DNA from: Streptomyces sp. NBC_01260
Lineage (GTDB): Bacteria; Actinomycetota; Actinomycetes; Streptomycetales; Streptomycetaceae
DNA length: 64,000 nt
Reading direction: 5' to 3'
Assembly (NCBI RefSeq): GCF_036226405.1
Contig: NZ_CP108464.1
Location: 2,542,001-2,606,000, forward strand
The notes under the pieces were generated by a model, which had not been told where the DNA came from, made no database searches, and saw only the letters and a program-made list of their open reading frames with translations. Both the position numbers and the translations under genes were made by a program. The stretch's first letter is position 1. Each line of letters begins with the position of its first letter. Below, one piece after another: positions 10,901-17,208 of the stretch.

Positions 10901-11944
10901 TCAGTGCGCCCGGCGGGTGACGAACTCCGCCAGGGCCAGGAGATCGCCCGCCGCGGACAGATCGGGCACCGCGCGGGACAGGTGGTGCACGGCGCGGGCC
11001 ATCCGGTCCGCTGCGTAGATCTGCGCCCAGTCACGGCCGCCGGCCCGGTCGACGGCGTCGGACGCACGGCTCACCTCCCCGGCCGTGTTCATGGCACCGC
11101 GGTAGAGCGCGGCGAGCTCCGTGGCCGCCGGGGTTCCGGAATTGAGTGCGGCGACCACGGGCAGCGACTTCTTGTGGGCGGCGAGATCGGCGCCGACCGG
11201 CTTCCCGGTCTGGGCCGGGTCACCCCAGATGCCGATGAGGTCGTCGATGAGCTGGAAGGCCAGCCCCGCCTCCCGGCCGAAACCGTCCATCGCTCCGACG
11301 CCACGCTCGTCCGCGCCCGCGTAGAGCGCACCCAGCGCGCAGGCGCAGCCGAGCAGCGCGCCCGTCTTGGCCGTGGCCATGGCCAGGCACTCGTCCAACG
11401 AGACCTCGTCCGGGCCGCGTTCCTCGAAGGCGCAGTCGGCCTGCTGGCCCGCGCACAGCTCGATGACGCAGGTCGAGAGCCGGGCCGAGGCGCGCGACGA
11501 CACCGCACGGGCGTCCTCGGCGAGCAGCCGCTGGGCGAGGGCCAGCATGGCGTCGCCCGCGATGACGGCGTCCGGGATACCGAAGACCGCCCAGGCCGTG
11601 GCGCGATGGCGACGGGTTCGGTCCTCGTCGATGACGTCGTCGTGCAGCAGGGTGAAGTTGTGGGCCAGTTCGACGGCGACGGCCGCCCGCACGGCGTCCC
11701 GGGGGTCGCCTCCGAGCGCCCGGGTGGCGGCCAGCACGAGCGCGGGCCTGATCGCCTTGCCCGCGCCGCCCGCGGCCGGGCTTCCGTCGGCGTGCTGCCA
11801 GCCGAAGTGGTACATGGCGACGCGCCGGATCGATCCGGGCAGCGAGGCGACCGCCGCCCGCAGGTGGGGGTCGACGAGGGATCGGGTGTACTCCAGAAGA
11901 GCTGCGGCCTCGTTGCCCTCGGTCGCGGCATCCGTATAGGTCAT
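10901..11944 (-). CDS. Polyprenyl diphosphate synthase, probable encapsulin cargo
   Basis: A 347-residue trans-isoprenyl diphosphate synthase. The first Asp-rich motif is DDVIDED (FARM, with LHDDVIDEDRTRRHRA); the second is DDLIGIWGD. FQLIDD and AAHKKSLPVVAAL support a short-chain (FPP/GGPP-type) synthase. It lies 194 bases downstream of a family 2B encapsulin shell gene on the same strand, an association known for this shell type. The first 20 residues (MTYTDAATEGNEAAALLEYT) precede the catalytic fold and are short for a cargo-loading tail. An in-frame open stretch continues up to 12085, but its codons (GCA, GTA, ACA, CGA) are unlike real genes here, so ATG 11944 is kept. Confidence 0.9.
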   Translation of the reverse strand: MTYTDAATEGNEAAALLEYTRSLVDPHLRAAVASLPGSIRRVAMYHFGWQHADGSPAAGGAGKAIRPALVLAATRALGGDPRDAVRAAVAVELAHNFTLLHDDVIDEDRTRRHRATAWAVFGIPDAVIAGDAMLALAQRLLAEDARAVSSRASARLSTCVIELCAGQQADCAFEERGPDEVSLDECLAMATAKTGALLGCACALGALYAGADERGVGAMDGFGREAGLAFQLIDDLIGIWGDPAQTGKPVGADLAAHKKSLPVVAALNSGTPAATELAALYRGAMNTAGEVSRASDAVDRAGGRDWAQIYAADRMARAVHHLSRAVPDLSAAGDLLALAEFVTRRAH

Positions 11945-12138
11945 GGTCAATCGGTCACCCCGGTCGTTGTCGTCCCGGCCGGGTCGCTGTCGCTCCGGGC
12001 CGGGGACGTGGGTGGTTGCTGTGGGTACTGCGGACCGTGGCCCGTGGGCCCGGACCCGGGGACAGCCCCGGCGGTCCGGGCGCACGGGCCTGGGGCGTGT
12101 GCGGGGAGCCCCGCCTGCCCCGTGGCGCTTCGCCCGCC

Positions 12139-13545
12139 CTAACGCCAGCGGCTGACCTCGACGTTCTCCAGGACGCCGAGGGCGTCCGGCACCAGTACGG
12201 CCGCCGAGTAGTAGGCCGTCACGAGGTAGGAGATGATCGCCTGCTCGTCGATCCCCATGAAGCGGACCGACAGGCTGGGCTCGATCTCGTCGGGGATGCC
12301 CGTCTGCTGGAGTCCGACGACGCCCTGTTCGGACTCACCGGTCCTCATGCAGATGATCGATGTGGTGCGGGCGTCGGTGACCGGGATCTTGTTGGACGGG
12401 AAGATCGGAACCCCGCGCCAGGCGGACATGCGCTGCCCGCCGACATCCACGCTCTCCGGAACCAGGCCGCGCTTGCTGCACTCCCGGCCGAAGGCGGCGA
12501 TGGCCCGCGGGTGGGCCAGGAAGAGCTTCGATCCGCGGCGGCGCGAGAGCAGTTCGTCCATGTCGTCGGGACCGGGCACGCCGTCGTGGGGCTGGATCCG
12601 CTGGCCGTAGTCGCAGTTGTTGAGCAGGCCGAACTCGCGGTTGTTGATCAGCTCGTGCTCCTGGCGCTCACGCAGCGCCTCGACCGTGAGCCGCAACTGC
12701 TGCTCGGTCTGGTTCATCGGCTGGTTGTACAGGTCGGCGACCCGGCTGTGGACCTTCAGCACGGTCTGCGCGACGCTCAGTTCGTACTCGCGCGGCGCGG
12801 AGTCGTAGTCGACGTACGTGTGCGGGACGACGGCCTCGCCGCTGTGCCCCGCCGACAGGTCGATCTCCGCTTCGCCGTACTTGTTGGTGCGCTGCTGCGG
12901 GATGGCCAGCAGCCCGGCGAGATGCTCGCGCAGCGAGTCGGACCGCTCGGCGAGGTTGAGCACATCCGCCCGCTGCAGCGTCAGTACGGTGCAGTCGGTG
13001 ACGGCGCGGGCCGAATACTCCCAGAGGGCGTCGCCCTCGATGAGGGCGTGGTCGCCGAAGTACGCCCCGTCGGCATGCACCCCGAGCACCGTCTCGTCCC
13101 CGTAGGGGCCGGTGCCGATCTTCTCGACCCTTCCGTGCGCCAGCAGGAAGACCCGGTCCGCCGCGTCACCGGCCGCGGCCAGGAGCCGTCCGGCGGGGAT
13201 GTCACGCTGCTCGCACCTGCGGGCCAGCTCGGCGAGCGCCTCCTCGTCCCCGAAGTCCCTCAGGGCCGGGAGTTCACCGAGCTCGGCGGGGATGACCGCC
13301 ACCCGGTCCCCCGTCTGCACGAAGGTCACCCGGCCGTCGCCGACCGAGTAGCTCAGCCTGCGGTTCACCCGGTATGTGCCGCCCTGCACCTGGACCCAAG
13401 GGAGCATCTTCAGCAGCCACCGTGAGGTGATCTCCTGCATCTGCGGAGCGGACTTGGTGGTCGTCGCGAGGTTCCGCGCGGCTGCCGTGCCAAGACTCTG
13501 CTGCGGCGGCACCTGCACGTTCTGAACCTCTTCACCAACGGACAT
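12139..13545 (-). CDS. Family 2B encapsulin shell protein with cyclic-nucleotide-binding insert (EshA-like)
   Basis: A 468-residue HK97-fold shell protein that should self-assemble into a protein nanocompartment. N-terminal arm and first shell part at residues 1-90; a Crp-type cyclic-nucleotide-binding insert at about 95-215 with a phosphate-binding cassette [10 protein letters not shown]...SARA (163-181; Arg180 kept); HK97 core at 216-468 ([40 protein letters not shown], ending VEVSRWR). This matches the Streptomyces EshA / SCO5249-type proteins linked to ppGpp and antibiotic timing, as I recall. The neighbouring polyprenyl synthase is the likely cargo. No terpene cyclase is nearby, unlike 2-methylisoborneol loci. 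Confidence 0.92.
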
Positions 13546-13720: not shown

Positions 13721-14170
13721 ATGCGGCTGACGAGATTCACCGACGTGGCGCTGCGTGTACTGATGCGCCTCGCCGTCGTGGAGAACGAGGACCCGCCGAC
13801 CACCCGGGAGGTGGCGGCGACCATGGAAGTGCCGTACTCCCACGCCGCGAAGGTGGTGGCCCGGCTCCAGCACCTCGGCCTGGTCGAGGCACGGCGCGGC
13901 CGCGGCGGCGGGCTCACCCTCACCGCGGGCGGCCGGTCCGCCTCGATCGGCGGGCTCGTCCGCGAGCTGGAGGGCCCGGGCGACGTCGTCGACTGCGAGG
14001 GCGCCACCCCGTGCCCGCTGCGCTCGGCGTGCCGGCTGCGCGGCGCCCTGCGCCAGGCGGCGGAAGCCTTCTACGCCACGCTCGACCCGATCACCGTCGC
14101 CGAACTCGTCGCCTCCCCCACGGGACCGCTGCTGATCGGCATCAGCGCCGGACGGCCACCCGGCGACTGA
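13721..14170 (+). CDS. nsrR: NsrR, nitric-oxide-sensing Rrf2-family repressor
   Basis: A 149-residue iron-sulfur regulator. Rrf2 winged helix at residues 1-80 (MRLTRFTDVALRVLMRLAV; REVAATMEVPYSHAAKVVARL; GRGGGLTLTAGG). Three cluster cysteines follow in CEGATPCPLRSAC (spacing C-x5-C-x5-C) as in Streptomyces NsrR, whose [4Fe-4S] form binds DNA and is lost on reaction with NO. The start ATG at 13721 is chosen for homology; an in-frame TTG lies 36 bases upstream within the operator. Immediately followed by hmpA, its usual target; both genes carry the same candidate operator. Confidence 0.93.
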   Translation: MRLTRFTDVALRVLMRLAVVENEDPPTTREVAATMEVPYSHAAKVVARLQHLGLVEARRGRGGGLTLTAGGRSASIGGLVRELEGPGDVVDCEGATPCPLRSACRLRGALRQAAEAFYATLDPITVAELVASPTGPLLIGISAGRPPGD

Positions 14171-14210
14171 ACCGCACCCGCGCCAAAGGGCCCCGCCCCG
14201 ACCCCCGCCG

Positions 14211-14238
14211 CACTCCGCACTCCGCGCTCCGCACTCCG
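14211..14238. repeat. 7-bp tandem repeat between nsrR and hmpA
   Basis: Four units of CACTCCG (one with CGCTCCG) run from 14211 to 14238 just before the hmpA operator. The array may vary in length between strains and so shift promoter spacing, but this is conjecture. Confidence 0.75.
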
Positions 14239-14249
14239 CCCAAAAATAC

Positions 14250-14267
14250 GCATCTCAGATACCAATT
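14250..14267 (+). promoter_or_regulatory. Candidate NsrR site upstream of hmpA
   Basis: GCATCTCAGATACCAATT ends 18 bases before the hmpA start codon and just before the GAGGAG ribosome site. It matches the motif upstream of nsrR at 14 of 18 bases, consistent with NsrR repression by blocking transcription start. Confidence 0.7.
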
Positions 14268-14285
14268 CAAAACCGAGGAGTCACG

Positions 14286-15482
14286 ATGCTCTCCGAGCCG
14301 TCGACCGCCACTGTCCGTGCCACCCTCCCCGCCGTCGGCGCGGCCATCGCAGACATCGCGGATCTCTTCTACCGCAAGCTGTTCGACGCCCACCCCGAGC
14401 TGCTGCGCGACCTCTTCAACCGCGGCAACCATGCCTCCGGCGCCCAGCGCCAGGCGCTCGCCGGCTCCATAGCCGCGTTCGCGACCCAGCTGGTCGAGCA
14501 CCCGGACACCCGCCCCGACGCCATGCTCGGCCGCATCGCGCACAAGCACGCCTCGCTCGGCATCACCGCCGCCCAGTACGACGTCGTGCACACCCACCTG
14601 TTCGCCGCCATCGCCGAGGTGCTCGGCGACGCCGTGACCCCGGAGGTCGCGGCCGCCTGGGACGAGGTCTACTGGCTGATGGCCAACGCCCTCATAGCCA
14701 TCGAGGAGCGGCTGTACGCGCAGCAGGGCGTGCTCGCCGGTGATGTCTGGCGCGACTGGGAGGTGGTTTCCCGGATCGAGGAGACCCAGGACGTCGCCAC
14801 CTTCCGGCTCCGCCCCGCCGACGGTTCGCCCGCCCCCGGCTTCCACCCCGGCCAGTACGTCTCGGTGCAGTCCGAACTCCCGGACGGCGCACGTCAGATA
14901 CGCCAGTACAGCCTCTCCTCGGCCCCCGGCTCCCCGCTCCGCTCGATCACCGTCAAGCGGGTGCACGGCGGCGGCGCCCCCGACGGCGAGGTCTCAGGAC
15001 AGCTGCACGACCGGGTCCGGGCGGGCGACCGGCTCCGGGTGTCGGCCCCGTACGGCGACCTCGTACTGAAGTCCGCCGACGCACCGCTCCTGCTCGCCTC
15101 CGCGGGCATCGGATGCACCCCGATGCTCTCGATGCTGGAGCACCTCGCGAACGACGATCACCGCACTCCGGTCACCGTCGTGCACGGCGACCGCTCCCCC
15201 GACGACCACGCCATGCGCACCGACCACGCCCTGCTCACGGGCAAACTTCCCGACGCCGCGGCGCACTTCTGGTACGAGAACCCCGAGCCGGGCCACCCCG
15301 CGAACCGCACGGGCCTGGTCGACCTGACGGGTCTGGTCATCCCGTCCGGCACCCACGCCTACCTCTGCGGCCCGCTGCCCTTCATGCGGTCCGTACGCAC
15401 CCAGCTGCTCGCCAAGGGTGTCCCGGCGGCCGACATCCACTACGAGGTGTTCGGCCCCGACCTGTGGCTCGCCAAGGACTGA
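14286..15482 (+). CDS. hmpA: Flavohemoglobin, nitric oxide dioxygenase
   Basis: A 398-residue cytosolic NO-detoxifying enzyme (NO + O2 + NAD(P)H to nitrate). Globin domain at residues 1-140 (distal-side helix region IADIADLFYRKLFDAHPELL; proximal region around IAHKHASLGI). FAD domain at about 150-255, with RQYSLSSAPG as the flavin-binding RxYSLS motif. NAD domain at 260-398 (LLLASAGIGCTPMLSML; C-terminal YEVFGPDLW). Full length for the family. It follows nsrR in the same direction but has its own operator at 14250-14267, so NO both inactivates NsrR and induces this gene. Confidence 0.95.
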   Translation: MLSEPSTATVRATLPAVGAAIADIADLFYRKLFDAHPELLRDLFNRGNHASGAQRQALAGSIAAFATQLVEHPDTRPDAMLGRIAHKHASLGITAAQYDVVHTHLFAAIAEVLGDAVTPEVAAAWDEVYWLMANALIAIEERLYAQQGVLAGDVWRDWEVVSRIEETQDVATFRLRPADGSPAPGFHPGQYVSVQSELPDGARQIRQYSLSSAPGSPLRSITVKRVHGGGAPDGEVSGQLHDRVRAGDRLRVSAPYGDLVLKSADAPLLLASAGIGCTPMLSMLEHLANDDHRTPVTVVHGDRSPDDHAMRTDHALLTGKLPDAAAHFWYENPEPGHPANRTGLVDLTGLVIPSGTHAYLCGPLPFMRSVRTQLLAKGVPAADIHYEVFGPDLWLAKD

Positions 15483-15629: not shown

Positions 15630-16220
15630 ATGTCCTCACCCATGTCCGCGAGCGCCTTCCTCGCCGCCCTGAAGAACGAGGGGCTCACCGTCGTCCAGGT
15701 AGGCGACTGGCGTACCCACAACCGCAACCACAAGGGCTCCTGGGGCCCGGTCAACGGCGTGATGATCCACCACACCGTCACCCAGGGCACCGACGCCACC
15801 GTCCGGCTCTGCCGCGACGGCCACTCCGGCCTGCCGGGGCCGCTGTGCCACGGCGTCATCGCGAAGGACGGCAGGGTCCATCTGGTCGGCTACGGCCGGG
15901 TCAATCACGCCGGTCTCGGCGACGACGACGTCCTGCGCGCCGTCGTCGCCGAGAAGCGCCTGCCGTCGGACAACGAGGCCAACACCGACGGAAACCGGCA
16001 CTTCTACGGCTTCGAGTGCGAGAACCTCGGCGACGGCAAGGACCCCTGGCCCGACGTCCAGCTCGAAGCCATCGAGAAGACGGCAGCCGCGATCTGCCGC
16101 CACCACGGCTGGACCTCCAAGTCGGTCATCGGACACCTGGAGTGGCAACCGGGCAAGGTGGACCCGCGCGGCTTCACGATGGCCTCCATGCGAGCACGGG
16201 TCCACGACCGCCTCAAGTAG
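15630..16220 (+). CDS. N-acetylmuramoyl-L-alanine amidase, Amidase_2 type
   Basis: A 196-residue zinc amidase that cleaves the lactyl-peptide bond of peptidoglycan. The fold markers are GVMIHHTVTQGTDA (first Zn His), LCHGVIAKDGRVHLVGYGRVNHAG, FYGFECENLGDG and GHLEWQPGKVDPRGF near the C-terminus (K and D/E near the last ligand, as in T7-lysozyme-like amidases). No signal peptide: the protein starts MSSPMSASAFLAALKNEG. It is therefore either phage-derived lysin-like, released by lysis, or exported another way. The start has AAAGGAG seven bases upstream. No other phage gene is near. Confidence 0.88.
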   Translation: MSSPMSASAFLAALKNEGLTVVQVGDWRTHNRNHKGSWGPVNGVMIHHTVTQGTDATVRLCRDGHSGLPGPLCHGVIAKDGRVHLVGYGRVNHAGLGDDDVLRAVVAEKRLPSDNEANTDGNRHFYGFECENLGDGKDPWPDVQLEAIEKTAAAICRHHGWTSKSVIGHLEWQPGKVDPRGFTMASMRARVHDRLK

Positions 16221-16260
16221 CCGCCCGCCGGCCCGCCCGGACCACGTCCACAATGGGGAC

Positions 16261-17208
16261 ATGCCCGCCACACCACCCCGTCCGCCCGGCCTCTCCCGGC
16301 TGCAGCCGGCGCTTCCGTCACCCCTCCAGCCGGCCGAGGACGACCGCTTCGGCCGGCACGGCGTACAGCTGCTGCTCAAGCGCGACGACCTGATCCACCC
16401 GGATCTGCCGGGCAACAAATGGCGCAAGCTCGCCCCCAACCTGCTCGCCGCCGCCGGACGTCCCGTGCTGACGTTCGGCGGGGCGTACTCCAACCATCTG
16501 CGGGCCACGGCCGCCGCGGGCCGGCTGCTGGGCTTCCGTACCGTCGGCGTCGTCCGCGGCGACGAGCTGGCCCACCGCCCGCTCAATCCCTCGCTCGCCC
16601 AGTGCGCCGCCGACGGGATGCGGCTGCACTTCGTGGACCGCCGGACGTACCGCGCAAAGGCCGATCCACAGGTCCTGGCCGGGCTGCTGAGCGCCCACGG
16701 GGAGTGCGAGGTCATCCCGGAGGGCGGCAGTAACGCCCTGGCCGCACAGGGCTGCACAGAGCTCGGGCGCGAGCTGCACGGCCGGGCCGCGGTGGCCGCG
16801 GTGGCCTGCGGTACCGGCGGCACCCTCGCCGGCCTCGCCGCCGGCCTGGCGCCGGGACAGCGCGCCCTCGGCATCCCGGTCCTGCGCGGCGGCTTCCTGG
16901 GCGACACGGTACGGGACCTCCAGCGGGAGGCGTTCGGCGGACCGGCCGGCGCCTGGTCCCTGGACGATCGCTTCCACTTCGGCGGCTACGCCCGCACCAC
17001 TGTCGCCCTGCACGCCTTCGCGGACGACTTCGAGGACCGGCACGGGCTGCCGGTCGAGCGGCTCTATGTGGCCAAACTCCTGTACGCGCTCACGGTGCTG
17101 GCCGAGGAGGGGGCCTTCCCCGCGGGCACCGCGGTCGCCGCCGTGATCACGGGAGGCCCGGACCCGGCCGAGCCGCCCGGAGCCCCTCAGTCCGCCTCCT
17201 CCCGGTAG
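16261..17208 (+). CDS. PLP enzyme, ACC deaminase / D-cysteine desulfhydrase family
   Basis: A 315-residue fold-type II PLP enzyme. Lys53 in LPGNKWRKL is the Schiff-base lysine motif of the family; FGGAYSNHLRATAAAG gives the SNH substrate loop; CGTGGTLAGLAAGL binds the phosphate of PLP. Family members either open 1-aminocyclopropane-1-carboxylate or release H2S from D-cysteine; sequence alone does not decide between them, and most actinobacterial members are probably D-cysteine desulfhydrases. Its end overlaps the convergent antiporter gene by 22 bases. Confidence 0.88.
   Translation: MPATPPRPPGLSRLQPALPSPLQPAEDDRFGRHGVQLLLKRDDLIHPDLPGNKWRKLAPNLLAAAGRPVLTFGGAYSNHLRATAAAGRLLGFRTVGVVRGDELAHRPLNPSLAQCAADGMRLHFVDRRTYRAKADPQVLAGLLSAHGECEVIPEGGSNALAAQGCTELGRELHGRAAVAAVACGTGGTLAGLAAGLAPGQRALGIPVLRGGFLGDTVRDLQREAFGGPAGAWSLDDRFHFGGYARTTVALHAFADDFEDRHGLPVERLYVAKLLYALTVLAEEGAFPAGTAVAAVITGGPDPAEPPGAPQSASSR

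Follow-up and report, generated by a model that had tools for sequence, protein, structure and literature searches.

Operons that place a Family 2B encapsulin shell gene beside a polyprenyl synthase gene, usually without a terpene cyclase, are an established class with 900 known polyprenyl transferase (PT) operons, 888 of them in Actinobacteria, next to 165 systems that contain both a PT and a cyclase (PMC8346489). Few 2B systems are as common as the PT type, and with 900 PT operons against 165 combined systems, PT operons usually do without a cyclase. Other described relatives are Sl-Enc1 and Sl-Enc2 of S. lydicus, which are likewise Family 2B shells with an insert domain but belong to a two-component system in a xylulose kinase operon (PMC12407261), and the solved shell 9bhu. 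We analysed a 64,000-nucleotide stretch of Streptomyces sp. NBC_01260 (the window), in which a single 2B shell gene (12139..13545, minus strand) precedes a gene for a short-chain polyprenyl diphosphate synthase, the putative cargo (10901..11944, minus strand). The original prediction had named the locus a Family 2B encapsulin with a prenyl diphosphate synthase, and had stated that known 2B loci pair their shells with cyclases or prenyl synthases; the latter is published, and the family models for both proteins agree with the former. Both genes are real and were placed correctly. The locus is an ordinary member of an already catalogued class, with one loose end concerning loading, and we consider it likely to be a one-shell PT-type Family 2B operon of Streptomyces whose synthase works in or against the shell.

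The shell protein of 468 aa matches NF041163, the NCBI equivalog model for Family 2B encapsulin shells, over residues 17-466 with 763.8 bits (cut-off 400), and the HK97-type SrpI-like domain PF19307 with 457.4 bits. The solved shell 9bhu, which we take to be S. griseus EshA (Sg Enc), aligns across residues 9-467 with 671 bits; it belongs to the same family, has the insert domain and shares nearly the same N-arm. The CRP-like insert domain (residues 114-201; 12943..13206, minus strand) is recognised by PF00027 with 60 bits inside the full-length NF041163 match, which places an insertion of the cyclic-nucleotide-binding domain (CNBD) fold in the E-loop, and it is retained across the relatives aligned. 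The HK97-like fold and the Crp-type insert had both been predicted, and these matches bear them out. Sixteen residues precede the SLGTAAAR stretch, in line with the roughly 18-residue N-terminal extension expected ahead of the N-helix, and the N-arm itself (residues 17-36; 13438..13497, minus strand) is mostly invariant in an alignment of 16 shells. The structure 9bix is presumably Sl-Enc2, and 9bje carries the Enc1 motif in the alignment. In diagnostic motif 1 as defined in PMC12407261 (residues 335-338; 12532..12543, minus strand), the window shell has RRRG, as in the self-assembling Sl-Enc2, whereas Sl-Enc1 has TVWK; unlike the two-component S. lydicus system, the window has a single shell of the Enc2-like kind.

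The synthase of 347 aa belongs to PF00348 and scores 483.4 bits against NF041169, the NCBI model for the Family 2 encapsulin cargo polyprenyl transferase (cut-off 450). It has the two Asp-rich motifs of a trans-prenyl diphosphate synthase, as predicted, though the second is a variant. The first, DDVID (residues 102-106; 11627..11641, minus strand), keeps Asp 102, 103 and 106 in all 70 sequences aligned; the second (residues 234-242; 11219..11245, minus strand) is DDLIGIWGD, a DDxxG..GD form rather than DDxxD, with Asp 234 and 235 in 70/70 and Asp 242 in 68/70. A chain-length rule ties the residue five positions before the first motif to the length of the product, and this residue is Phe97. The sequence suggests a short prenyl diphosphate of C15-C20, most likely geranylgeranyl diphosphate (GGPP) because of Phe97, or perhaps farnesyl diphosphate. 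The closest solved relative is 3nf2, a putative polyprenyl synthetase (255.9 bits, residues 13-345); its first-motif stretch, HNFSLLHDDLMDGD, is shared with another locus of the same genome (L007), and since L007 bears this stretch, 3nf2 looks like a different paralogue from the window synthase.

The start of the synthase bears directly on the length of its head. The frame is open upstream to a GTG at 12085, which would give a protein of 394 aa. Among 12 close relatives, the variable columns of the upstream stretch fall evenly on the three codon positions (22, 20 and 25 of 47 each), against 7, 3 and 24 of 50 in the coding part. Because the upstream stretch has no codon-position bias and contains frame-breaking indels, we rejected the GTG and take the ATG at 11944 as the start. 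The 194-nt spacer between the genes (11945..12138) is non-coding by this comparison, with a Shine-Dalgarno-like stretch before the ATG. Within it, the stretch CCACAGCAACCACCCACG is identical in 9 of the 12 aligned sequences.

The case for a functional unit is carried mainly by the pairing of the two genes. From the genome collection we took 80 named relatives for comparison, all Streptomyces or species once filed near it, with synthase identities of up to 99%. The shell gene lies directly upstream of the synthase gene in 77 of them, and in the other three (L018, L050, L086) the contig ends upstream of the synthase after 104, 1 and 199 bases; the pairing is not chance, since 77 of 80 keep it and the three misses are contig ends. 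In a survey of 121 Streptomyces genomes, a synthase match with an E-value of 1e-100 or better was found in 93 (three partial: G374, G339, G391), and 90 of these sit directly behind a shell at least 73% identical to that of the window. Of the three unpaired matches, G400 stems from a contig break, G391 is a fragment located at a contig end, and G368 has truly lost the shell. Shells at this identity number 98, and eight are unpaired, namely, those of G400, G301 and G390, four that adjoin cyclases (G346, G347, G305, G345) and a second shell at a contig end in G402. With the synthase of locus L133 as query, a second actinobacterial family gave a match in 179 of 250 genomes, and a shell stands alongside at 28 of the 30 loci examined, which are the best-scoring ones and include four genomes already in the class sample. 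The genes are closely spaced, with a minimum of 14 nt between aligned ends and a 4-nt overlap in L135. The shell-synthase pair is near standard in Streptomyces. The shells that adjoin terpene cyclases and not a prenyl synthase (L219, L220, L221, L222) share 75-78% identity with that of the window; judged by these identities, this is a change of partner within one shell lineage.

We propose that the shell, given its Enc2-type motif RRRG, would self-assemble into a T=1 particle roughly 28 nm in size, and that the co-expressed synthase would work inside or against it and make a short prenyl diphosphate. Substrates and product would pass through open pores with no cyclic-nucleotide gate, and the gain would lie in enzyme concentration, stabilisation or developmental placing, not in a closed pool. 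The sequences themselves convey the shell and synthase families, a tight and old pairing, the lack of the cassette arginine in the insert domain (see below) and the lack of a long tail; luminal loading of the synthase we regard as probable.

The lack of a tail is the loose end. Cargo enzymes of PT-type Family 2B operons are described as having a disordered N-terminal domain of 50-100 residues (PMC8346489), whereas the window synthase has about nine disordered residues. In an AlphaFold2 model built from 25 sequences (mean predicted local distance difference test score, pLDDT, 91.8), 11 residues fall below 50, residues 1-9 are the sole such segment, and the fold is predicted to begin at about residue 10. 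We measured the conservation of the head in 70 of 81 sequences that have an in-frame ATG at most 8 codons from the window start (11 without one were excluded; 1061 pairs). Residues 2-12 rank 29 of 31 windows, although Thr2, Thr4 and Asp5 are each retained in 87-92% of 63; a conserved cargo tag in the head was therefore mostly rejected. An LGT-type motif, as used by cyclases for loading, was found in none of 38 PT ORFs (open reading frames; chance expectation 0.8). The cargo-tail motif that the original prediction proposed to look for in the synthase head thus has no recognisable counterpart. At the other end of the protein, the C-terminal helix is strongly conserved (mean identity 0.89 over residues 332-342), but since 3nf2 has a similar end we do not regard it as a specific tag.

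These observations speak for the strongest alternative, in which the synthase is not encapsulated but belongs to the operon as an enzyme that is free or bound to the shell surface, and the shell is empty or has other contents. The short, weakly conserved head and the missing cyclase-type motif are what this alternative expects, and they weigh against the operon reading given above, as do several further points: G368 (L216) has the synthase without a shell; G301 has a shell without a synthase and G390 a shell with a 112-aa synthase remnant (L217, L218); the GGPP-specific model IdsB gives 371.1, below its cut-off of 475, with the product length itself inferred; and our literature search, mostly short of full texts, found no experimental study of a PT-type particle. 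On the other side, none of nine neighbour genes of the window was found at eight loci of other genera, yet the shell-synthase pair persists there, so that the pair crosses the genus border and its neighbours do not; the genes are tightly spaced; and both NCBI and PMC8346489 count enzymes of this kind as cargo because of their association. The pairing across families with differing neighbours, together with the short spacers, leads us to prefer an operon whose synthase works in or against the shell, and we judge a free synthase unlikely. The missing tail makes this locus a useful test of whether adjacency means cargo.

A wider but tentative idea, which we think rather doubtful, is that a sizeable Family 2B class loads a tailless synthase through its folded body or a very short N-terminal peptide. 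Such a route would differ from that of the cyclases, whose motif GPTGLGTSAAR resembles the shell N-arm (LGTSAAR/LGTAAAR). In other genera, synthases beside 2B shells also begin near the common core, and the pattern M-[AST]-x-[TVI]-[DE] recurs at synthase starts in several genera. The stricter pattern M[TAS].T[DEQ], chosen post hoc, fits 15 of 494 distinct N-termini of these loci, of which 14 are synthases by inspection; at the 30 loci of the second family it fits a minority and the looser pattern more, as judged by eye with no background rate. L291, a locus without a shell, also fits the short pattern. Since the fits were judged by eye with no background rate and the shell-less L291 fits as well, the head pattern is only a lead. 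Longer heads in another Streptomyces clade (40 loci, L225-L264, synthases 67-74% identical) speak against tailless loading as a general route. Their heads are roughly 18-75 residues long, with script-chosen starts 10-75 residues ahead of the common core in tblastn alignments; nine of the 40 begin with M[AG]EFMTET at the script-chosen start and 23 match a loose form of it, which makes it a possible short tag of that clade. As heads are short in other genera but long in this clade, the tail is variable within the class.

The likeness between cyclase motif and shell arm may itself be informative. The cyclase cargo consensus is GPTGLGTSAAR (PMC8346489), and within it lies the heptamer LGTSAAR, with which the N-arm of some 2B shells begins too. 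The likeness was seen with the arm of the window shell (13438-13497) and loci L144, L150, L151, L152, L163 and L172; among 108 shells, six have one 13-letter form of the arm, 26 another, and 91 fit a looser pattern. A loose heptamer pattern fits 6 of the 23 cyclase matches best hit by a 2-methylisoborneol (2-MIB) synthase query, against 0.35 expected from shuffling, but none of 29 geosmin-query matches, though PMC8346489 describes the motif in that group, and none of 38 synthases. The cyclase cargo peptide may mimic the shell N-arm and dock in its place; the literature passages on 2B shells that we consulted contained no discussion of this.

The original prediction had also proposed a shell gated by cyclic AMP (cAMP) or another nucleotide and enclosing a pool of prenyl diphosphate, with the phosphate-cassette arginine kept as Arg180. 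We located the cassette from phmmer alignments of shell residues 92-222 with the cAMP-binding domain of MloK1. Aligned to 4muv, the Arg of the cassette GEPRS meets Leu174 and its Ser meets Trp175; aligned to 3co2, which we take to be an engineered MloK1 mutant with impaired cAMP binding, the Trp that stands where 4muv has Arg meets Trp175. Arg180 pairs with a Ser in both alignments and is not the cassette residue, and the Arg of a ligand-binding cyclic-nucleotide domain is replaced here by Trp175 (13021..13023, minus strand), at or adjacent to its place, or by Leu174. All 77 close relatives have Trp at position 175, as do 36 of 37 PT-linked class-sample shells and 58 of 72 other shells, the window shell itself being counted among the 72. 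The insert domain does match the CNBD family (PF00027) and is conserved, and some small ligand is left open in PMC12407261; according to the same paper, cyclic nucleotides are not bound by the insert domain of Family 2B, and the two-fold pores of Sl-Enc2, which the insert domains occlude in part, measure 14 by 60 Å, so that a closed pool is doubtful. With the cassette Arg missing, non-binding reported and such pores in a related shell, little is left of the gated-pool model, which we hold to be very improbable.

The same genome encodes a second 2B shell together with a 2-MIB synthase and a methyltransferase (L003, 8627-12383; G000:C1 about 1132126-1135882). This shell scores 939.9 bits against 9bhu and shares 64% identity with the window shell, which in sequence terms is its paralogue; 9bhu, correspondingly, is closer to the 2-MIB-linked shell. 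EshA of S. venezuelae is encoded with a 2-MIB synthase (PMC6428758), while the window shell has no cyclase in its window and is not encoded in a 2-MIB operon. In S. coelicolor, eshB (SCO5249) and eshA (SCO7699) are described as paralogues and eshB is induced in development (PMC3878966). The window shell stands to the 2-MIB-linked shell as EshB to EshA, with orthology inferred, and is probably of the EshB type. Disruption of eshB reportedly left antibiotic production unchanged. The predicted tie to guanosine tetraphosphate (ppGpp) and antibiotic timing, drawn from a resemblance to EshA, pertains to the paralogue encoded with the 2-MIB synthase; it is for EshA that a ppGpp link is reported (PMC6627660), and this should not be carried over to the window shell. 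That the window synthase feeds the 2-MIB-synthase-loaded shell, perhaps through mixed shells of both paralogues, is highly unlikely: both shells occur in one genome, their N-arms are nearly identical and in S. lydicus the two components of a 2B shell assemble together, but a second 2B shell is not above the cut-off in 8 of 23 pair-bearing class-sample Streptomyces genomes, Phe97 points to C20 by the chain-length rule where 2-MIB needs C10, and the two loci lie 1.4 Mb apart.

As to the surroundings of the locus, no class I terpene cyclase (PF19086) was found in the window, all eight matches of the genome lying elsewhere, and a Pfam scan of 29 surrounding ORFs (9 + 10 + 10) detected no terpene or methyltransferase gene. 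The predicted absence of such genes within 10 kb is upheld for these 29 ORFs, which are part of the ORFs within 10 kb, and lacking a cyclase is normal for the published PT operon type. Divergent genes for an Rrf2/NsrR-like regulator and a flavohaemoglobin lie at 13721-15482 (plus strand). The two are found at 53 and 50 of the 80 relatives and a DUF6304 gene at 78 of 80, these counts being lower bounds as flanks were 5 kb and some contigs are cut; at the 22 class-sample Streptomyces loci, they are found at 4, 3 and 6, respectively. Being few there, these three neighbours were set aside as clues to function. A Na+/H+ antiporter gene (20 of 22) and the ORF 15636-16907 on the minus strand (21 of 22) mark a shared Streptomyces site; the latter is probably the shadow of a gene for a pyridoxal phosphate (PLP)-dependent enzyme on the opposite strand (16261-17208, plus strand). 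Among the cyclase matches elsewhere in the genome, two with identical scores lie near both chromosome ends (G000:C1:56534-57094 and 9067263-9067823; L015, L016), perhaps in terminal inverted repeats.
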